A stretch of DNA of 64,000 nucleotides from NCBI RefSeq assembly GCF_030818255.1, contig NZ_JAUTAG010000001.1, positions 2,666,001 through 2,730,000 on the forward strand, given 5' to 3'. This document shows positions 13,766 to 24,039 of the stretch, piece by piece. The notes beneath the pieces were generated by a model. The model had not been told where the DNA came from, ran no database searches, and saw nothing but the letters and a program-made list of their open reading frames with translations. A program made the translations under genes and the position numbers. Within the stretch, counting starts at the first letter, position 1. Each line of letters starts with the position of its first letter. This DNA is from Microbacterium sp. SORGH_AS_0969. GTDB lineage: Bacteria; Actinomycetota; Actinomycetes; Actinomycetales; Microbacteriaceae.

Positions 13766-14956
13766 ATGTCGCAGGCGTTTCTCATCGGCGGTGCGCGCAC
13801 CCCGGTCGGCCGATACGGCGGGGCTCTGGCATCCGTTCGTCCCGACGATCTCGCGGCCCTCGTGGTCGGCGAAGCCGTGGCCCGCGCGGGCGTTCCGGTC
13901 ACCGCGATCGACGAGGTGATCCTCGGAGCGGCGAACCAGGCCGGCGAAGACAACCGGAACGTCGCGCGCATGGCCGTGCTGCTCGCCGGGCTCCCGGATG
14001 CCGTTCCCGCCCTCACCGTGAACCGCTTGTGCGCCTCGGGGATGAGCGCGATCGCGCTTGCGGCCCAGGCGGTGCGCGCGGGCGACGCCGACATCGTCGT
14101 CGCGGGAGGCGTCGAGTCGATGACCCGCGCGCCCTGGGTGCAGGCGAAGCCGTCGAAAGCGTGGGCGAAGCCGGGCGAGGCGTTCGACACCTCGATCGGT
14201 TGGCGGTTCACCAACCCTCGCCTCGCCGTCCGCGACAAGGCCACGTTCACCATGCCCGAGACCGCCGAAGAAGTGGCCCGGGTCGACGGGATTTCCCGTG
14301 CCGACGCCGACGCGTTCGCTCTCCGCAGCCACGAGAGGGCGATCCGGGCTCAGGATGCCGGACGCTTCCGCGACGAGATCGTCGCCGTCGAGACCCCTCG
14401 CGGATCGGTGGACACCGATGAGGGGCCGCGTCGGGACACCTCGCTGGAGGTGCTCGCGGGACTCCGGCCCGTCGTGAAGGGCGGGGAGGTGGTCACCGCG
14501 GGCAACGCGAGCTCCCTCAACGACGGCGCCTCGGCGATCGTGGTGGCGAGCGCCGAGGCGGTCGAGCGGTACGGCTTGCGGCCGCGCGCACGGATCGTCT
14601 CGCACGCCTCGGCCGGAGTGGCTCCCGAGGTCATGGGACTCGGTCCGGTGCCCGCGACCGAGAGAGCGCTCGCGAAGGCCGGGCTCTCGGCATCCGATCT
14701 GGGGGCGGTCGAGCTCAACGAGGCGTTCGCCTCGCAGTCGCTCGCCTGCATGCGCCGGCTCAGCCTCGACCCCGAGATCGTCAACGCCGACGGAGGGGCG
14801 ATCGCGCTCGGGCATCCGCTCGGATCGAGCGGGTCGCGGTTGGTCGTCACTCTGCTCGGCCGGCTCGAGCGGGAGGACGCGCGGTATGGCCTCGCGACGA
14901 TGTGCGTCGGTGTGGGTCAGGGCACCGCGATGATCGTGGAGCGGGTCGATGGCTGA
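13766..14956 (+). CDS. paaJ: acetyl-CoA acyltransferase (thiolase) of phenylacetate degradation
   Basis: A 396-residue thiolase with active-site C89 (NRLCASGMSA), the GHPLG histidine near 350 and the second Cys near 380 in CVGVGQG. It is the first gene of the paaJFHZIK operon. By context it cleaves 3-oxoadipyl-CoA to succinyl-CoA and acetyl-CoA, and also 3-oxo-5,6-dehydrosuberyl-CoA. The start chosen is ATG 13766, six bases after GGGGAGAGG; ATG 13760 directly abuts that site. The stop overlaps the start of the next gene by 8 bases. Confidence 0.9.
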   Translation: MSQAFLIGGARTPVGRYGGALASVRPDDLAALVVGEAVARAGVPVTAIDEVILGAANQAGEDNRNVARMAVLLAGLPDAVPALTVNRLCASGMSAIALAAQAVRAGDADIVVAGGVESMTRAPWVQAKPSKAWAKPGEAFDTSIGWRFTNPRLAVRDKATFTMPETAEEVARVDGISRADADAFALRSHERAIRAQDAGRFRDEIVAVETPRGSVDTDEGPRRDTSLEVLAGLRPVVKGGEVVTAGNASSLNDGASAIVVASAEAVERYGLRPRARIVSHASAGVAPEVMGLGPVPATERALAKAGLSASDLGAVELNEAFASQSLACMRRLSLDPEIVNADGGAIALGHPLGSSGSRLVVTLLGRLEREDARYGLATMCVGVGQGTAMIVERVDG

Positions 14957-15896
14957 GTCGACGACCGGTTCTCGCGCGGGGGCGGTGGCTTCGACAGGCT
15001 CAGCCACCGGCGCGACAGTCACCGGCACGTCCGAGGCCCCTGAGCGGGCCGAGGTCCCTGAGCGGGCCGAGGTCCCTGAGCGGGCCGAGGTCCCTGAGCG
15101 GGCCGAGGTCCCTGAGCGGGCCGAGGTCCCTGAGCTTGTCGAAGGGACCGGTACCCCCGACGCACCCCGCCTGCGCATCGACGCGCACGACGACCGCGTG
15201 GTCGCCACCCTCGACCGCCCCGACCGCCGCAACGCGATCGACCAGGCCATGGTCGACGAGCTGCACGCGCTGTGCGCTGAGCTCGAAGAGCACCCGCGCT
15301 CGCTGATCCTCACCGGCGCGGGCGGCATCTTCGCCGCCGGTGCCGACATCGCGCAACTGCGCGAGCGCACCGGCGATGACGCCCGTCGGGGCATCAACGC
15401 GACCGTCTTCGATCGCATCCGCCATCTGCCCATGCCGGTCATCGCCGCCGTCGACGGGTACGCGCTCGGCGGGGGAGCCGAGCTGGCGTATGCGGCCGAC
15501 ATCCGACTCGGCACCCCGCGTGTGCGTTTCGGCAATCCTGAACCCGGCCTCGGCATCATCGCCGCGGCGGGCGCTGCGTGGCGCCTGCCCGAGATCGTCG
15601 GCCACGCGCGCGCGAGCGAGCTGCTGCTGACCACCCGCGTGATCGACGCCGACGAAGCTCTCGCCTGGGGTCTCGTGTCGAGCATCCACGAGCCGGACGC
15701 CCTGCTCGACGCCGCCCACGCGATCGTCGACCGGATCGCCGCGAACTCCGTGCGGGCGACGATCCTCACCAAGCGTGCGCTGCTCGCCCCGCGCGCGGAG
15801 CATCCCGCGATCGACGGCGAGCTGCAGGCTGAGCTGTTCGACAGCGCCGACAAGCGCGCGCGTATGACCGCGTTCCTCGAGAGGAAGAAGAAGTGA
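14949..15896 (+). CDS. paaF: enoyl-CoA hydratase (2,3-dehydroadipyl-CoA hydratase type) with repeat-derived N-terminal extension
   Basis: A 315-residue crotonase-fold enzyme. Residues from about 75 on are a normal enoyl-CoA hydratase (VVATLDRPDRRNAIDQAM; oxyanion-hole loops GAGGIFAAGADIAQL and DGYALGGGAELAYA; NPEPGLGIIAAAG). In the paa pathway this activity hydrates 2,3-dehydroadipyl-CoA. The first ~70 residues are foreign: a palindromic repeat (14984-15008), five 18-bp units giving repeated EVPERA, and an inverted partner repeat (15125-15149). Typical family members lack this part. ATG 14949 overlaps paaJ; the real family start would be near 15170 but no better start codon or ribosome site was seen there. 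Confidence 0.88.
   Translation: MAESTTGSRAGAVASTGSATGATVTGTSEAPERAEVPERAEVPERAEVPERAEVPERAEVPELVEGTGTPDAPRLRIDAHDDRVVATLDRPDRRNAIDQAMVDELHALCAELEEHPRSLILTGAGGIFAAGADIAQLRERTGDDARRGINATVFDRIRHLPMPVIAAVDGYALGGGAELAYAADIRLGTPRVRFGNPEPGLGIIAAAGAAWRLPEIVGHARASELLLTTRVIDADEALAWGLVSSIHEPDALLDAAHAIVDRIAANSVRATILTKRALLAPRAEHPAIDGELQAELFDSADKRARMTAFLERKKK
14984..15149 (+). repeat. inverted pair of palindromic TTCGACAGGCTCAG repeats with 18-bp tandem array, inside paaF
   Basis: The left element (14984-15008) has arms GGTGGCT/AGCCACC around TCGACAGGCTC. The right element (15125-15149) has arms GGTCCCT/AGGGACC around GAGCTTGTCGA, so it is inverted. Between them are five near-identical 18-bp units (15033-15122, GAGGTCCCTGAGCGGGCC), apparently copied from the right element. 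All lengths keep the paaF frame. Confidence 0.92.
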
Positions 15897-16738: not shown

Positions 16739-18786
16739 CGTTTCTGCCGAGCTACGTGAACGGCGCGTGGTGGATGCCCCAGGACGATCCCGACGCCGCG
16801 GTCGTGCGCGACGCCTCGACCGGTGACGAGATCGTGCGGGTCAGCACGAAGGGTCTCGATCTCGCCGGAGCGGTCGCCTACGCGCGCCGCGAGGGCCAGA
16901 GAAGCCTCGGTTCCCTCACCTTCCCCCAGCGGGCGATGGTGCTGAAGAACCTCGCGATCGCCCTGAACGAGCGCCGCGAGGAGCTGTACGCCCTCTCGGA
17001 GCGCTCGGGGTCGACCCGGCGCGACTCGCTCAGCGACGTCGACGGTGGCATCGGCGTGCTCTTCACCTTCTCGTCGAAGGCCCGTCGCGAGCTGCCCGCC
17101 GGAAAGGTCGTGCTCGACGGGCCGATCGAGCCGCTGTCGAAGGACGGCTCCTTCCTCGGCCGGCACGTCTACACGCGCCTCCCCGGCGTCGCGGTGCAGA
17201 TCAACGCCTTCAACTTCCCGATGTGGGGAGCGCTCGAGAAGTTCGCGCCGGCGTTCCTCGCCGGGCTGCCCACGATCGTCAAGCCCGCGACCCCGACGGC
17301 GTACATCGCCGAGGCGTGGGTGCGGATGGTCGTCGAGACCGGACTCCTCCCCGAGGGATCGCTGCAGCTGATCAGCGGGAGCGTCCCGGGCCTGTTCGAC
17401 CTGCTCGATCTCGGCGACACCGTCGGTTTCACCGGCAGCGCCTCGACCGCCGAGCGACTGCGCGCCCAGGCGAAGCCCGGCGTGCGCTTCACGAGCGAGA
17501 CCGACTCGATCAACGCCTCGATCCTCGGCCCCGACGCCGCGCCCGGCACCCCCGAGTTCGACGCGTACGTCAAGCAGTTGCTCGTCGAGATGACGACCAA
17601 GGCCGGCCAGAAGTGCACGGCGATCCGTCGCGCGATCGTGCCGGCGGGGATGACGGATGCCGTGGCCGAAGCGTTGCGTGCCAAGATCGCCGAGCGTGTC
17701 GTCATCGGCGACCCGCGCACCGAGGGCGTCACGATGGGCCCGGTCGTCTCGATCGAGCAGCGCGACGAGGTGCGGCGGCAGGTGGCGGCGCTCCAGGCGG
17801 CGGGAGGGCGGTTCGTCGTCGGCTCGGCCGAGGCGCCCGAGGGCACGCCCGTGGAGGGGGCGTTCCTCCAGCCCATGCTGCTGGCCTTCGTGGATGCCGC
17901 GACCCCGGCCGTCAACGACATCGAGGCGTTCGGGCCGGTCGCGAGCATCGTCGAGTACGCCGATGTCGCGGAGGCGGCGGCCATCGTGGCGCGCGGCGGC
18001 GGCTCGCTCGTCACGAGCGTCGCGACCCACGACCCCGACGTCGCGACCGAGCTGCTCACCCGAATGGGAGCGATGAACGGTCGCGTGCTCTTCCTCGACC
18101 GCGACGACGCGCGCACCTCCACCGGGCACGGCGCTCCCGTGCCGCACCTCGTGCACGGCGGGCCCGGTCGCGCCGGCGGTGGGGAGGAGCTCGGCGGCAT
18201 CCGTTCGGTGCTCCATTACATGCAGCGCACGGCGATCCAGGGCTCGCCGCGCATGCTGACCGCGCTCACCGGGGTGTGGCATCCGGGTGCCGAGACCGAC
18301 TCCGCCGGGACGCACCCCTTCCGCAAGCCCCTGTCCGAGCTTCGGATCGGGGATGCCGTGGAGTCGGCCGAACGACAGGTCACCCTCGACGACATCGAGG
18401 TGTTCGCGAGATTCACCGGCGACACGTTCTACGCGCACATGGACGAGGAGTCGGCGGCGGCCAACCCCTTCTTCCCGGGGCGTGTGGCCCACGGCTACCT
18501 GCTCGTGTCATGGGCGGCGGGATTGTTCGTCGACCCCGCGCCCGGCCCGGTGCTCGCGAACTCGGGGCTCGAGAACCTTCGCTTCGTCACCCCCGTCTCA
18601 CCCGGCGACCGCATCCGCGTCGCGCTGACGGCCAAGCAGATCACCCCGCGCGAGACCGACGAGTACGGCGAGGTTCGCTGGGATGCCGTCATCCGCAACC
18701 AGCGCGACGAGATCGTCGCGCAGTACGACGTGCTCACGCTCGTGGCGAAGACGTGGGCGCCCGCGCCTGTGGCGGTGCCCGCATGA
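16735..18786 (+). CDS. paaZ: bifunctional oxepin-CoA hydrolase / semialdehyde dehydrogenase PaaZ
   Basis: A 683-residue fusion. Residues 1 to about 520 are an aldehyde dehydrogenase (NAFNFPMWG, FTGSASTAERL, catalytic C294 in AGQKCTAIRR). Residues from about 540 are a MaoC-type hot-dog hydratase with the D and H of TGDTFYAHMDEESA...FPGRVAHGYL. In E. coli PaaZ the C-terminal domain opens oxepin-CoA and the N-terminal domain oxidises the aldehyde to 3-oxo-5,6-dehydrosuberyl-CoA. Both halves look intact. The start is ATG 16735, in the 4-base overlap with paaH; the four upstream codons of the open frame (MERT) belong to paaH sequence. Confidence 0.93.
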   Translation: MTFLPSYVNGAWWMPQDDPDAAVVRDASTGDEIVRVSTKGLDLAGAVAYARREGQRSLGSLTFPQRAMVLKNLAIALNERREELYALSERSGSTRRDSLSDVDGGIGVLFTFSSKARRELPAGKVVLDGPIEPLSKDGSFLGRHVYTRLPGVAVQINAFNFPMWGALEKFAPAFLAGLPTIVKPATPTAYIAEAWVRMVVETGLLPEGSLQLISGSVPGLFDLLDLGDTVGFTGSASTAERLRAQAKPGVRFTSETDSINASILGPDAAPGTPEFDAYVKQLLVEMTTKAGQKCTAIRRAIVPAGMTDAVAEALRAKIAERVVIGDPRTEGVTMGPVVSIEQRDEVRRQVAALQAAGGRFVVGSAEAPEGTPVEGAFLQPMLLAFVDAATPAVNDIEAFGPVASIVEYADVAEAAAIVARGGGSLVTSVATHDPDVATELLTRMGAMNGRVLFLDRDDARTSTGHGAPVPHLVHGGPGRAGGGEELGGIRSVLHYMQRTAIQGSPRMLTALTGVWHPGAETDSAGTHPFRKPLSELRIGDAVESAERQVTLDDIEVFARFTGDTFYAHMDEESAAANPFFPGRVAHGYLLVSWAAGLFVDPAPGPVLANSGLENLRFVTPVSPGDRIRVALTAKQITPRETDEYGEVRWDAVIRNQRDEIVAQYDVLTLVAKTWAPAPVAVPA

Positions 18787-19493
18787 CCCTGCGCCCGATG
18801 ATGCGGAACGATCGGGCGTCGGCGATGCTCGGCATGGTCGTCGAACACGACGCGCCGGGGGAGTCGCGGGTGTCTATGACCGTGCGCGACGACATGCTCA
18901 ACGGCTTCGCCATCACCCATGGCGGACTCGTCTTCACGCTCGCCGACACCGCGTTCGCGATCGCCTGCAACGAGGACGAGCGGGTGACCGTCGCCGGTGG
19001 TGCCGACATCACGTTCCTGAAGTCCACGACCGCCGGGCAGACGCTCACGGCGACGGCCGCGCGCCGCGCCCGCAGTGGTCGGACGGGCCTGTACGACATC
19101 CGCGTGACGGATGAGACGGGTGACCTCGTCGCCGAGGTGCGCGGCCGCAGCATCACGACCGACCGGCGACCGCCGGCGGCGCCCCCGGTCCCTTCGACGG
19201 GCTCAGGGACCTCCGCCGCGGCAGGGACCTCCGCCGCGGCAGGGACCTCCGTCGCGGCAGGAACCTTCGCCGCGCCGGTGGCTGAGCCTGTCGAAGCCTC
19301 CGGCCCCCGACCCGTGCGGTTCCCGGTCCCTTCGACGGGCTCAGGGACCTCCGCCGCGGCAGGGACCTCCGTCGCGGCAGGAACCTTCGCCGCGCCGGTG
19401 GCTGAGCCTGTCGAAGCCTCCGGCCCCCGACCCGTGCACGACCCCGATCCCGAGCGCAACGCCGCGCTCCCCACCACGGAGGTGTCTCGATGA
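18783..19493 (+). CDS. paaI: hydroxyphenylacetyl-CoA thioesterase PaaI with repeat-derived C-terminal tail
   Basis: A 236-residue protein. The first ~130 residues are a hot-dog thioesterase (MTVRDDMLNGFAITHGGLVFTLADTAFA, containing the catalytic N and D of PaaI). PaaI hydrolyses dead-end CoA thioesters and so frees CoA during phenylacetate catabolism. Ordinary PaaI is about 140 residues. Here about 95 extra residues (from PPVPSTGSGTSAAAG) are encoded by two consecutive palindromic-repeat pairs at 19187-19422. The tail is Ala/Gly/Ser/Pro-rich and probably disordered. The start overlaps paaZ by 4 bases and the end overlaps paaK by 4 bases. Confidence 0.9.
   Translation: MTLRPMMRNDRASAMLGMVVEHDAPGESRVSMTVRDDMLNGFAITHGGLVFTLADTAFAIACNEDERVTVAGGADITFLKSTTAGQTLTATAARRARSGRTGLYDIRVTDETGDLVAEVRGRSITTDRRPPAAPPVPSTGSGTSAAAGTSAAAGTSVAAGTFAAPVAEPVEASGPRPVRFPVPSTGSGTSAAAGTSVAAGTFAAPVAEPVEASGPRPVHDPDPERNAALPTTEVSR
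19187..19422 (+). repeat. two tandem palindromic-repeat pairs at the 3' end of paaI
   Basis: Each unit starts with GGTCCC-TTCGACGGGCTCA-GGGACC (19187-19211 and 19325-19349). It continues with 18-bp AGGGACCTCCG(C/T)CGCGGC units (one more in the first unit) and ends with the inverted GGTGGCTGAGCCTGTCGAAGCC. The two units are otherwise almost identical and stay in frame with paaI. Confidence 0.92.
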
Positions 19494-20800: not shown

Positions 20801-20874
20801 CGCTTCTCATGCTCACGCATGACCTCCCCCGGCGTGCGTATGGCGCAAGTCAGCGGGGCTGGCGGCGGCCGCGG

Positions 20875-21535
20875 TCAGGCCGGGCGCGCGAGGGGAGTGT
20901 CGTCGAGGCCGTCGATCAGGTCGCGGAGGCTGTCGAACACGTGCGCGGCGCCGGCGTCCCGCAGTTCCTCGGGTGAGAAGCCGCCGGGTGCGCACCGCGA
21001 TCGTGGGGACCTCCGCGCGGGCGGCGGCGATGGCATCCCACGGGGAATCACCGATCATCACGCCGCTCGATCCGGGCACCCTCTCCAGCGCTGTCTGCAC
21101 GAGGTCGGGCGCGGGTTTGCTGGCCTCGACGTCGTCGGACGAGGTCCATGCGTCGGCGAGGCCGCGCGCATCGACGAGGTCGAGGAAGTGCTCGACGTGT
21201 TCGCTCTTGCCGGAGCTGGCGAGCACGACCTGAAAGCCTCGCCGCTTCACCTCGACGAGAAGGTCGTGCGCCCCGTCGAAGGGGTGCACCTCGTCGATCA
21301 TCGGCTCGAACTCCTCGGTCCACGCCTCGCGCAGGGCGTCGCCGTGCCGGTTCTCGACGTCGTCGCTCGTGAGCGAGGGGACGAGCTGATCGCCGCCCAT
21401 GCCGATCGAGCGATGGATGCGCCAGATGGGCAGAACGATGTCGAAGCGCAGGAACGAGCGGTACCACGCGAGCGCGTGCTGGTAGTTCGTGTCGACGAGG
21501 GTGCCGTCGACGTCGAAGATCGCGGTGTCTGCCAT
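20875..21535 (-). CDS. HAD-superfamily hydrolase, frameshifted near the C-terminus
   Basis: From ATG 21535 the protein reads as a phosphoglycolate-phosphatase-like HAD enzyme: nucleophile motif [22 protein letters not shown], lysine motif ASKPAPDLV and acidic motif [11 protein letters not shown]. After VPTIAVRT (about residue 183) the frame turns into Arg-rich nonsense running to 20813. Removing one G of the GGG at 20986-20988 restores a typical ending ([19 protein letters not shown], then DLIDGL) with a stop at 20875. The given end assumes that corrected frame. It is either a real one-base insertion or a sequencing error. It lies between and opposite to the two paa operons. Confidence 0.75.
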
Positions 21536-21604
21536 GCGCCCACTCCACGCGCTCGCGCCCGAGGCGTCACGCCCGTTGCGGTTGCCCAACCCCTCCGCTA
21601 CAGT

Positions 21605-21628
21605 TTTACTGAACGATCGGTCTGTAAA
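21605..21628 (+). promoter_or_regulatory. PaaR/TetR-type operator upstream of paaABCDEG
   Basis: A near-perfect palindrome with outer arms TTTAC and GTAAA around TGAACGATCGGTCT, ending 10 bases before the paaA start. The copy before paaJ (13687-13710) shares ACTGAACGATCGGTC. The position over or next to the promoter fits a repressor site. Confidence 0.8.
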
Positions 21629-21638
21629 GGAGTCGACG

Positions 21639-22610
21639 ATGACCATGACCGCACCCACCCCGGATGCCCTGGATGGCGAGGCGATGTTCGACGCGCTCAT
21701 CGAGGCCGACGGCCGCATCGAACCGCGCGACTGGATGCCGGACGGCTACCGCCGCACCCTGATCCGCCAGATCTCCCAGCACGCGCACTCCGAGATCATC
21801 GGCATGCAGCCGGAGGGGGCGTGGATCACGCGCGCGCCGAGCCTCAAGCGCAAGTCGATCCTGCTCGCGAAGGTGCAGGACGAAGCAGGGCACGGCCTCT
21901 ACCTCTACTCCGCCGCGCAGACCCTCGGCATCACGCGCGACGAGATGACGCAGCAGCTCGTCGACGGCAAGGCCCGCTACTCGTCGATCTTCAACTACCC
22001 CACCCCGACCTGGGCCGACATGGGCGCCATCGGCTGGCTCGTCGACGGTGCCGCGATCTGCAACCAGGTGCCGCTGTGCCGCGCCTCATACGGGCCCTAC
22101 GGTCGCGCGATGGTGCGCATCTGCAAAGAGGAGTCGTTCCACCAGCGCCAGGGGTTCGAGATCCTGCTCACCCTCATGCAGGGAACCGACGCGCAGCGCG
22201 AGATGGCTCAGGATGCCGTGAACCGCTGGTACTGGCCGAGCTTGATGATGTTCGGGCCCCCGGATGACGACTCGCCCAACTCGGCGCAGTCGACGGCGTG
22301 GAACATCAAGCGCTTCAGCAACGACGTGCTCCGCCAGCGCTTCGTCTCGATGCTCGTGCCGCAGGCCGCTGTGCTCGGCGTGACGCTGCCCGACCCCGAC
22401 CTGCGCTTCAACGAGGAGACGGGTCAGTACGACATGGGCGAGATCGACTGGAGCGAGTTCCACGAGGTGCTCGCCGGGCGTGGACCGCTCAACACGATGC
22501 GGCGTCAGCACCGTCGCGACGCGCACGAAGAGGGCGCCTGGGTGCGGGAAGCCGCCGCGGCGTACGCCGCGAAGAAGAGTGCCGCCCGTACCGAGACGGC
22601 GGCTGCCTGA
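21639..22610 (+). CDS. paaA: 1,2-phenylacetyl-CoA epoxidase, catalytic subunit A
   Basis: A 323-residue ferritin-like di-iron oxygenase subunit. Family motifs are [29 protein letters not shown] (iron ligands E and H) and [12 protein letters not shown] (second E-x-x-H pair). With PaaC it forms the catalytic core that epoxidises the ring of phenylacetyl-CoA. AAAGGAG precedes ATG 21639; a second ATG at 21645 is possible. It is the first gene of the paaABCDEG operon, directly behind the operator. Confidence 0.94.
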
Positions 22611-22915
22611 TGGCGACGCCGGGTGGGAGCCCCACCGAGACGTGGCCCCTCTGGGAAGTGTTCGTGCGCGCGAACCGCGGTCTGAGCCACGTGCACGTCG
22701 GCTCGCTGCACGCCCCCGACGCCGAGCTCGCCGTGCGCAACGCGCGCGACCTCTACACCCGTCGCGGCGAGGGCGTCTCGGTGTGGGTCGTGCCTTCGGA
22801 TGCCGTGACCACGAGCGATCCGGGAGCGAAGGGCGCGTTCTTCGAGTCGCCGGCGGGAAAGAACTACCGTCACGCGGTGTACTACACCGCCTCCGAGGGG
22901 GTGCCGCACCTGTGA
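22610..22915 (+). CDS. paaB: 1,2-phenylacetyl-CoA epoxidase, subunit B
   Basis: A 101-residue PaaB, the small structural subunit that bridges PaaAC heterodimers. Typical motifs are WEVFVRANRGLSHVHVGSLHAPD and ARDLYTRRGEGVSVWVV, with a C-terminal YYTASEGVPHL. ATG 22610 overlaps the paaA stop by 1 base and the stop overlaps paaC by 4 bases. Confidence 0.93.
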   Translation: MATPGGSPTETWPLWEVFVRANRGLSHVHVGSLHAPDAELAVRNARDLYTRRGEGVSVWVVPSDAVTTSDPGAKGAFFESPAGKNYRHAVYYTASEGVPHL

Positions 22916-24039
22916 GCACCTCGACCGATCACGAGTCCCGGTCCCTTCGACAGGCTCAGGGACCTGACGCGGCCCAGGTGGCTGAGCCTGTCGAAGCCCC
23001 CGACGCGGGGGGCCGGTCCCTTCGACAGGCTCAGGGACCTCACGCGGCCCAGGTGGCTGAGCCTGTCGAAGCCCCCGACGCGGGGGGCCGGTCCCTTCGA
23101 CAGGCTCAGGGACCTGACGCGGCCCAGGTGGCTGAGCCTGTCGAAGCCCCCGACGCGGGGGGCCGGTCCCTTCGACAGGCTCAGGGACCTCACGCGGCCC
23201 AGGTGGCTGAGCCTGTCGAAGCCGCCGACCCGCACGGCGACGTCTCTCTCGACGCCCGCGAGCTCGCCGCCGAGCTCGCCGGGGGAGAGGACCGCGCCAC
23301 GGATCCCGACGTCGCCGCCTACGCGCTGCGCCTCGGCGACGACGCGCTGATCCTCGCCCAGAACCTCTGCGGCTGGATCGCCCGCGCCCCCGAGATCGAG
23401 GAGGACGTCGCCCTCGGCAACATCGCCCTCGACCTGCTCGGCCACGCCCGCTCCCTGTTGCGTTACGCGGGCAGCTACGACGGTCGGACCGAAGACGACC
23501 TCGCCTACTGGCGCGACGAGAAGGAGTTCCGCAGCGCCTGGCTCTTCGAACTCCCGAACGGCGACTTCGCCCACACGATCGTCCGCCAGCTCCTGGCATC
23601 CGCGTACCTCGTCGAGCTGTACCGCGACCTCACAGCATCCACCGATCCGGTGCTCTCCGCCGTCGCCGCGAAGGCCGAGAAGGAGGTCGACTACCACCGC
23701 GACCACGCCGTGCAGTGGACACTCCGCCTCGCCGGCGGAACCGACGAGTCGCGGCGCCGCTTCCTCGTCGCCCTCGACGACACCTGGCCGTACCTCGACG
23801 AGCTGTTCCGCGACGAACCGCTCCACGACCGACTCGACGGGGTCGCGGTGCGTCCCTCGACGCTGCGCACGCGGGTCGACGAGGTCGTCGCGACGGTGTT
23901 CGCCGAAGAGGACGTCGAGGTTCCCGGCATCCCGTTCTCGTCCGCCGGAGGTCGCCGTGGCATCCATCACCCGTCGTTCGGACCCCTGATCGCCGAGATG
24001 CAGGTGCTGGCCCGCCGACACCCGGGGGCGACATGGTGA
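22912..24039 (+). CDS. paaC: 1,2-phenylacetyl-CoA epoxidase, structural subunit C, with ~100-residue repeat extension
   Basis: A 375-residue protein. From about residue 110 it is a regular PaaC (YALRLGDDALILAQNLCGWI, NIALDLLGHARSLLRYAG, DEKEFRSAWLFELPNGDFAHTI), the non-catalytic ferritin-like partner of PaaA. Normal PaaC is about 250-270 residues. The N-terminus here carries four 25-residue repeats (SLRQAQGP-AAQVAEPVEAPDAGG type) encoded by a 75-bp palindromic-repeat array at 22940-23232. GTG 22912 overlaps the paaB stop by 4 bases, which makes it the coupled start, so the array is very likely translated unless an internal start is used. Confidence 0.92.
   Translation: MSTSTDHESRSLRQAQGPDAAQVAEPVEAPDAGGRSLRQAQGPHAAQVAEPVEAPDAGGRSLRQAQGPDAAQVAEPVEAPDAGGRSLRQAQGPHAAQVAEPVEAADPHGDVSLDARELAAELAGGEDRATDPDVAAYALRLGDDALILAQNLCGWIARAPEIEEDVALGNIALDLLGHARSLLRYAGSYDGRTEDDLAYWRDEKEFRSAWLFELPNGDFAHTIVRQLLASAYLVELYRDLTASTDPVLSAVAAKAEKEVDYHRDHAVQWTLRLAGGTDESRRRFLVALDDTWPYLDELFRDEPLHDRLDGVAVRPSTLRTRVDEVVATVFAEEDVEVPGIPFSSAGGRRGIHHPSFGPLIAEMQVLARRHPGATW
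22940..23232 (+). repeat. four tandem 75-bp units of the palindromic-repeat pair inside paaC
   Basis: Units start at 22940, 23015, 23090 and 23165 (period exactly 75 bp). Each holds a GGTCCC-TTCGACAGGCTCA-GGGACC element, a short spacer, the inverted GGTGGCTGAGCCTGTCGAAGCC element and a GACGCGGGGGGCC linker. Units 1/3 and 2/4 match each other best (GACCTGACG versus GACCTCACG), suggesting that a pair of units was duplicated. The last unit is cut after GCCGCCGACC. Confidence 0.95.

Follow-up and report, generated by a model that had tools for sequence, protein, structure and literature searches.

REPs are usually explained by RAYT transposases. One described arrangement is the REPIN, in which an inverted pair of short palindromes is the apparent unit and most copies are extragenic (Bertels and Rainey 2011, PMC3116915); in both respects, as far as the accessible part of that paper describes them, REPINs resemble the element treated here. 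The closest known system is the CGTC super-family (Di Nocera et al. 2013, PMC3733652). In the part of its description available, the members are short hairpins that often form dimers of unlike members, occur in several phyla, include some intragenic copies and have no adjoining transposase, and our element is similar on each point. The same source describes the palindromic elements of Rickettsia, which lie in frame in many unrelated proteins, and by that published description the likeness to Rickettsia coding palindromes drawn in an earlier note on this DNA is apt. We hold with moderate confidence that the three insertions found in paa genes belong to a REP-like palindromic element dispersed over the whole genome. 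The element likely multiplies in the form of inverted pairs, each made of two unlike hairpins, with no transposase linked to it, and its translation is predicted wherever it is in frame in the ends and linkers of proteins.

The window, that is, the whole stretch of 64,000 nucleotides of Microbacterium DNA that was analyzed, contains 15 matches to the 14-base core of the palindrome with up to two mismatches, compared with 0.44 expected from shuffles; the palindromes that had been reported are thus real, in frame, and far above chance. Fourteen of the matches fall at three paa sites (in the leaders of PaaF and PaaC and in the tail of PaaI), which bears out the claim that one repeat lies inside three proteins of one pathway; the fifteenth, at 20924-20937 with two mismatches, is within chance expectation. 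The PaaF-like enoyl-CoA hydratase/isomerase gene (14949..15896, + strand; Pfam ECH_1 at residues 85-314) starts with an ATG at 14949 that overlaps the upstream TGA, and its frame is open throughout the array in its N-terminal leader. Between 14984 and 15149 the layout is as first described. A 25-bp hairpin, GGTGGCTTCGACAGGCTCAGCCACC (14984..15008, +), with G-type arms (GGTGGC/GCCACC) that match fully over 7 bases, and its inverted 25-bp partner, GGTCCCTGAGCTTGTCGAAGGGACC (15125..15149, -), with C-type arms (GGTCCC/GGGACC) and a core with A, both recognized from their letters and the core scan, stand around an 18-bp tandem (15031..15135, +), which TRF reports in 5.8 copies with 98% matches and whose open frame encodes EVPERA repeats. 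Since each 18-bp unit consists of one palindrome half and a spacer, we take these units for secondary slippage products. The estimate of about 70 extra N-terminal residues in PaaF agrees with the 72 predicted residues that precede the conserved core.

The second gene, called PaaI-like after the earlier note (18783..19493, +; open frame), carries two inverted pairs in its C-terminal tail and reaches its stop codon only across the hairpin array. C-type hairpins at 19187..19211 and 19325..19349 (both +) alternate with G-type hairpins, each with one arm mismatch, at 19277..19301 and 19397..19421 (both -; all four from letters and core scan), and TRF finds 18-bp tandems together with a 120-bp duplication of the inverted pair at 19204..19437 (+). 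The PaaC-like gene (22912..24039, +; open frame, Pfam PaaA_PaaC), whose GTG start overlaps the PaaB stop, has eight hairpins after its first codons (core scan: 22940-22964, 22977-23001, 23015-23039, 23052-23076, 23090-23114, 23127-23151, 23165-23189, and 23202-23226); in this leader, a C-type/G-type inverted pair is repeated as a 75-bp tandem of 3.9 copies (22938..23229, +; TRF and core scan). The 18-bp and 75-bp tandems and the 120-bp duplication support the secondary tandem growth that had been suggested, and the inverted pairs have the REPIN/BIME-like architecture recognized earlier. Translation of the element residues, also proposed at the outset, is predicted from open frames and conserved flanks. 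The available text of PMC3733652 cautions that N-terminal REP copies may be untranslated; the PaaI-like gene escapes this caution because its frame crosses the array to reach the stop, as do interior insertions. Elsewhere in the window, a frame at 20813-21718 (-), presumably of a HAD-family hydrolase-like protein, loses its expected C-terminal part and continues in a different frame near 20990-21000, a change that suggests a frameshift or an assembly error.

The restriction of the repeat to paa genes had led to the idea of a paa-specific protein-extending element or a local recombination hotspot. The observation that the repeat occurs nowhere else in 64 kb is correct for the window but not for the genome: the exact core, TTCGACARGCTCAG, is present in 97 + 126 = 223 copies in the whole 3.94-Mb genome to which the window belongs (G000), compared with a single copy of the reversed-pattern control. 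An even sample of 40 x 20 kb, or 20% of this genome, contains 49 cores in 24 clusters, of which 19 are intergenic and five are in genes (two of the five share one gene). With a simple hexamer gene caller of our own, which assigns 82% of bases to coding regions and supplied the gene calls other than the Pfam hosts, clusters are far rarer in genes than chance predicts (P = 8.5e-11). Four of the five genic clusters lie near protein ends (three begin 9, 33, and 47 bases past the predicted start, and one ends 55 bases before the stop), and the remaining one is interior. Given the 24 clusters per 800 kb of the sample, finding three within 64 kb is not unusual (P = 0.30), which leaves no paa enrichment to account for. 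On the one hand, all 14 real copies of the window are in three paa genes, relatives use the same paa sites, and within the syntenic 120 kb the paa clusters are all of those in G000 (three), all of those in G127 (two), and three of the four in G093. On the other hand, copies are spread everywhere in the genome, mostly between genes, and recurrence at the same sites is explained by vertical sharing. We therefore reject a paa-specific hotspot and give it next to no probability.

Among 198 genomes of the genus, including the window's own, 118 carry the core, with 0 to 565 copies. Across the phylum, 46 of 396 genomes match it, mostly in one or a few copies and with a maximum of 29 outside the genus; within its own phylum the core is rare outside the genus, and its spread is patchy. 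The genome with 29 copies (G504) belongs to the same class and another family, and its sampled kin have none or few. Through PaaC orthologues we located 20 paa operons, 14 from close relatives and six from more distant ones, one of them cut short by its contig. Exact cores occupy at least one of the three paa sites in 10 of the 14 close relatives and in two of the six distant ones; G116, G173, and G020 have no cores at these sites, and in G096 there is a single degenerate match. The count is without the PaaF site of G024 and G016 and the PaaI site of G095, whose positions could not be assigned. Because the three sites are shared with close relatives, their occupancy is not recent, which contradicts the proposed recent invasion of the paa locus; the sites are old ones, common to these relatives, at which units have turned over. 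The stretches that host the elements are variable linkers. For the PaaF leader, the distance from the previous stop to the conserved core is 77 codons here versus 7 to 31 in five relatives without an exact core there, a comparison that leaves out G006 and G095, whose upstream frames are open for 220 and 191 codons. For PaaI, the tail past the conserved core measures 27 to 108 residues in 14 clade members, counting the window, as against 5 to 9 residues in four distant relatives; it is also long in some members without elements, and such tails thus seem to accept elements rather than be made by them. Gains also occur, as another gene of G086 has an N-terminal insertion that is absent from G000, G127, and G093. 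Furthermore, G127, the closest relative by PaaC, is empty at the RlmN and carboxyltransferase sites treated below, where more distant species share the insertions of G000; this points to a contribution of horizontal exchange or of repeated insertion.

The element forms a hairpin in each copy, roughly GG-nnn-CTTCGACRRGCTCAG-n'n'n'-CC. In the 79 unique cores of the window's own genome, two stem positions swap C-G and G-C jointly, with paired fractions of 0.99 and 0.95 versus 0.50 and 0.49 when partners are shuffled, and a third position covaries weakly (0.66 versus 0.52); in 116 cores from named genomes, the same two positions are paired in 0.95 and 0.85 versus 0.41 and 0.34. The outer two stem pairs are G-C in 73/79 and 70/79 of the own cores. 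As single-stranded DNA, all four typed strands fold better than the shuffle mean (z -2.0 to -3.0) into a 7-bp stem with an 11-base loop; a 5-base loop would need G.A pairing, which does not arise in the model. The inner mismatches of the CTGAGC strand are G.A pairs in tandem and in Y-GA-R context, which would be a stable motif. Such hairpins might be retained for a host function, as terminators, for mRNA stability, or as nucleoid or uptake sites. Their folding points in this direction, as does the presence of only one of 19 intergenic clusters between divergent genes versus 106 of 434 gaps (one-sided P = 0.04); however, species of a single genus carry none or hundreds of copies, enzymes are interrupted by them, and they form tandem arrays, all of which makes a retained host function improbable.

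The own loci contain 30 inverted neighbor pairs with starts 26-105 bases apart. In all 33 own clusters with typed pairs, a count that leaves out hairpins with other arms, inverted neighbors combine a CC-armed with a GG-armed hairpin. The same rule of unlike arms applies to 32/32 clusters in five other members of the genus (M. mangrovi, 12/12; G086, 7/7; G005, 6/6; G029, 4/4; G093, 3/3), not all of them independent, since some clusters of G086 and G093 are the shared paa sites. The partner of the CC arm is mostly GG in the G000 clade and mostly CG in G029 and G005, and both occur in M. mangrovi. Outside the genus, unlike arms were found in 14 of 23 cases (6/8 in Plantibacter and 8/15 in named genomes outside the family). 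In Plantibacter (G637; L450-L452 and L463-L470), CC arms are often paired with CA arms. Same-strand neighbors have equal arms in 9/9 and 15/15 typed pairs, as expected from tandem duplication.

Copies within genes follow the reading frame. In G000, array periods are divisible by three at all six coding loci (18, from TRF, 120/138, 75, 123, 21, and 54) versus 7 of 19 intergenic ones (Fisher one-sided P = 0.0097), with periods read by hand; many of the arrays tested come from the first 100 core places genome-wide rather than from the even sample. One locus (L393, periods 117/118), where the predicted gene ends inside the array, is left out of this test; counted as coding, it gives 6/7 and P = 0.037. 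Hosts recognized by Pfam comprise an iron-sulfur protein, which we take to be SdhB, an E1-E2 ATPase, presumably KdpB (KdpA and KdpC are among the proteins flanking G000 clusters), a circularly permuted ATP-grasp protein, ScpA, an Lhr-type helicase, an acetamidase, a carboxyltransferase, and a radical SAM protein, assumed here to be RlmN. Peptides such as PSTGSGT, AEPVEA, and LRQAQG in these proteins are explained as predicted products of the repeat, which is useful for annotation.

Alignment with MAFFT at the G086 sites revealed no clean insertion borders in variable linkers, and we therefore used conserved enzymes for empty sites. Of 20 genomes, 18 have an empty carboxyltransferase site (IVDAGEF-like); the two exceptions, G000 and G086, are longer by 18 nt and read IVDPSTGSGTGEF, and by our reading short matches such as GGAC and CCGG lie at the borders. 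Among 11 aligned genomes, G000 and G093 carry the element at the RlmN site, which is empty in the nine others; the SdhB site is occupied in G000 alone among 11; and the Lhr linker, again in 11 genomes, is doubly occupied in G000, carries degenerate copies in G081 and G086, and is empty in the other eight. In-frame insertion, a feature of the Rickettsia elements, is thus seen both in Pfam-recognized hosts and against empty sites. None of these four comparisons shows a plain target duplication; in our own reading of the four junctions, about 3 to 24 host bases appear to have been replaced per event. The junctions may have been altered after insertion, and replacement without duplication is a reading of four events. 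In G127, the RlmN and carboxyltransferase sites (L421 and L403) are empty, and the G000 insertions are shared by the more distant G093 (L420) and G086 (L401), a pattern that may reflect exchange by homologous recombination or insertion more than once at a single place.

The element reaches far beyond the genus. The 14-base core was found in at least 117 stretches of a sequence collection, and the record titles among the matches listed include Sphingomonads, other Proteobacteria, Bacteroidetes, Chloroflexi, Cyanobacteria, Fibrobacter, Myxococcales, Zixibacteria, Neomarinimicrobiota, and others. In 50 genomes, all chosen for having the core, copies were counted; 48 of them, which span ten phyla as read from their titles, have at least five copies (up to 522, in Plantibacter), and the reversed pattern occurs 0 or 1 times. 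The tags of the counted copies are YGTCA in 13/27 from Bacteroidota, CCGYTC in 28/41 from Proteobacteria, and GGT in 7/17 from Actinomycetota, the rest being mostly untyped. Some Bacteroidota stretches (L144, L160, L175, L157, and L185) have GGACC/CCACC-type tails as in Microbacterium beside a TGAC-tagged form. That the core is conserved across phyla while arms and tags change counts against copying as the sole mechanism and suggests that a conserved protein recognizes it.

A RAYT-type transposase, which the REPIN-like layout had brought to mind, is not in evidence: G000 has no match to the Y1 domain (PF01797), and the sole genus genome with a match (1/198) carries a single core, while the same search matched 5 of 14 control genomes. 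A classical REPIN mobilized by a RAYT transposase that has since been lost would account for the inverted pairs, the short spacers, and the intergenic preference, and of the 50 named genomes that carry the core, 29 do have Y1 matches. However, the other 21, including Plantibacter with its 522 copies, have none, the core lies within the fetched flanks of only 3 of 31 Y1 loci, and 197 of the 198 genus genomes do without Y1. Mobilization by RAYT is thus largely refuted, and we reject it for this genus; the chance of a lost transposase of this kind is slim.

Searches for another carrier or partner gave little. No Pfam family recurs in more than two of 77 proteins (40 to 700 residues) beside G000 clusters, or in more than two of 96 ORFs, chosen by a crude procedure, that adjoin copies elsewhere, so that an association with transposase genes is absent, as in the CGTC super-family. 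DUF559, a speculative pick as mobilizer, is present in 195 of 198 genus genomes, which is uninformative on copy number and cannot explain it. In a search of Rfam, the tandem matched a single miRNA family below threshold (32.7 bits versus a cut-off of 128). In plasmid and phage collections, the core is present in two Microbacterium plasmid records and one uncultured phage record; there is thus no obvious carrier in those collections. One copy on a Microbacterium plasmid record (NZ_CP072877.1; L399, 3001-3057) lies inside an annotated uvrC gene, which may be compared with a published remark that repair genes carry REPs. IMG/VR contigs contain the core 14-mer in at least 120 stretches. Some of these viral contigs (L247, L260, L263, and L284) have inverted neighboring cores, so that the element may be riding on phage or misbinned host DNA.

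A transposase or nuclease other than Y1, unlinked and acting in trans, might recognize the hairpin core and move the pair as a miniature transposon. We regard this as a tentative but real possibility: it would fit the core that is invariant in many phyla while arms and tags change, the rule of unlike arms in the genus, as though two different ends were required, and the big swings in copy number among species of one genus. Yet no family recurs beside the copies, here or across phyla, the four empty sites lack a plain target duplication, and the sole candidate tried is nearly ubiquitous in the genus.

We read the element as REP/BIME-like, without a known transposase, and filtered by reading frame; it has likely spread without the enzyme that usually moves such repeats. 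From the four junctions and the negative searches, we infer movement by template switching or by an enzyme other than those searched for. Dispersal would begin with hairpins exposed as single strands in replication and copied elsewhere by template switching at short homologies, a mode suggested by the four best-resolved coding events, which replace host bases with no plain target duplication. Tandem arrays would form afterwards through slippage or unequal recombination. Copies that are out of frame or in folded domains would be lost, and the survivors would be those between genes and those that keep the frame in linkers, loops, and termini. A broader joint reading is that a single hairpin with a fixed 14-base core, present in tens or hundreds of copies in at least ten phyla and without a transposase of its own, is copied by host replication and repair through template switching at microhomology, with obligate unlike arms in Microbacterium and ongoing insertion of linker peptides into essential enzymes. 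As a whole, we consider this rather unlikely; if true, it would describe a transposase-free selfish sequence that also generates protein novelty.

How does the element compare with described families? The letters of the 14-base core were not found in open-licence full text (figures lay outside the search), and its 12-mers matched, among the matches listed, only works with unrelated-looking titles. With its high copy number (223), mostly extragenic position (19/24), and inverted dimers with a short spacer, the element is a form of REP; its membership in the CGTC super-family is not proven. The super-family is tagged with CGTC (or TGTC/CCTC), and about half of the Bacteroidota copies of the core have such a tag (YGTCA, 13/27). 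In Microbacterium, by contrast, the arms are GGT/ACC and the CGTC tag is missing (YGTCA in 0/17 from Actinomycetota, CCTC being left uncounted). According to the available part of PMC3733652, whose text does not contain the word Actinobacteria, the CGTC stem begins with A-T pairs and arrays are rare; in contrast, our outer stem pairs are mostly G-C, and the Microbacterium element forms large arrays. The CGTC loop has 4-5 bases; the model folds our DNA with an 11-base loop, and a 5-base loop would arise if the G.A pairs formed. Unlike the RAYT-linked REPINs of PMC3116915, as its accessible text presents them, it has no RAYT match in its genome and pairs unlike hairpins, and unlike GTAG REPs it has no GTAG tag, its arms and flanks being mostly CGGT...ACCT. 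It differs from the Rickettsia elements, compared by description only, in its tandem growth inside proteins and its Actinobacterial host. The BIMEs of E. coli, built of Y and Z units (PMC2817692, PMC6006769), likewise combine unlike hairpins in alternating orientation, but, in the portions of these papers available, they differ in sequence and their units go with RAYT; in addition, every Microbacterium cluster examined pairs unlike arms, and which second arm is used varies by lineage. With copy numbers from 0 to 565, hardly any RAYT, exact empty sites, a lineage-varying second arm, and in-frame copies in enzymes, this genus would make the spread of transposase-less REPs of the CGTC type directly testable. 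It also provides a natural series in which the tolerance of proteins for inserted linkers can be studied.
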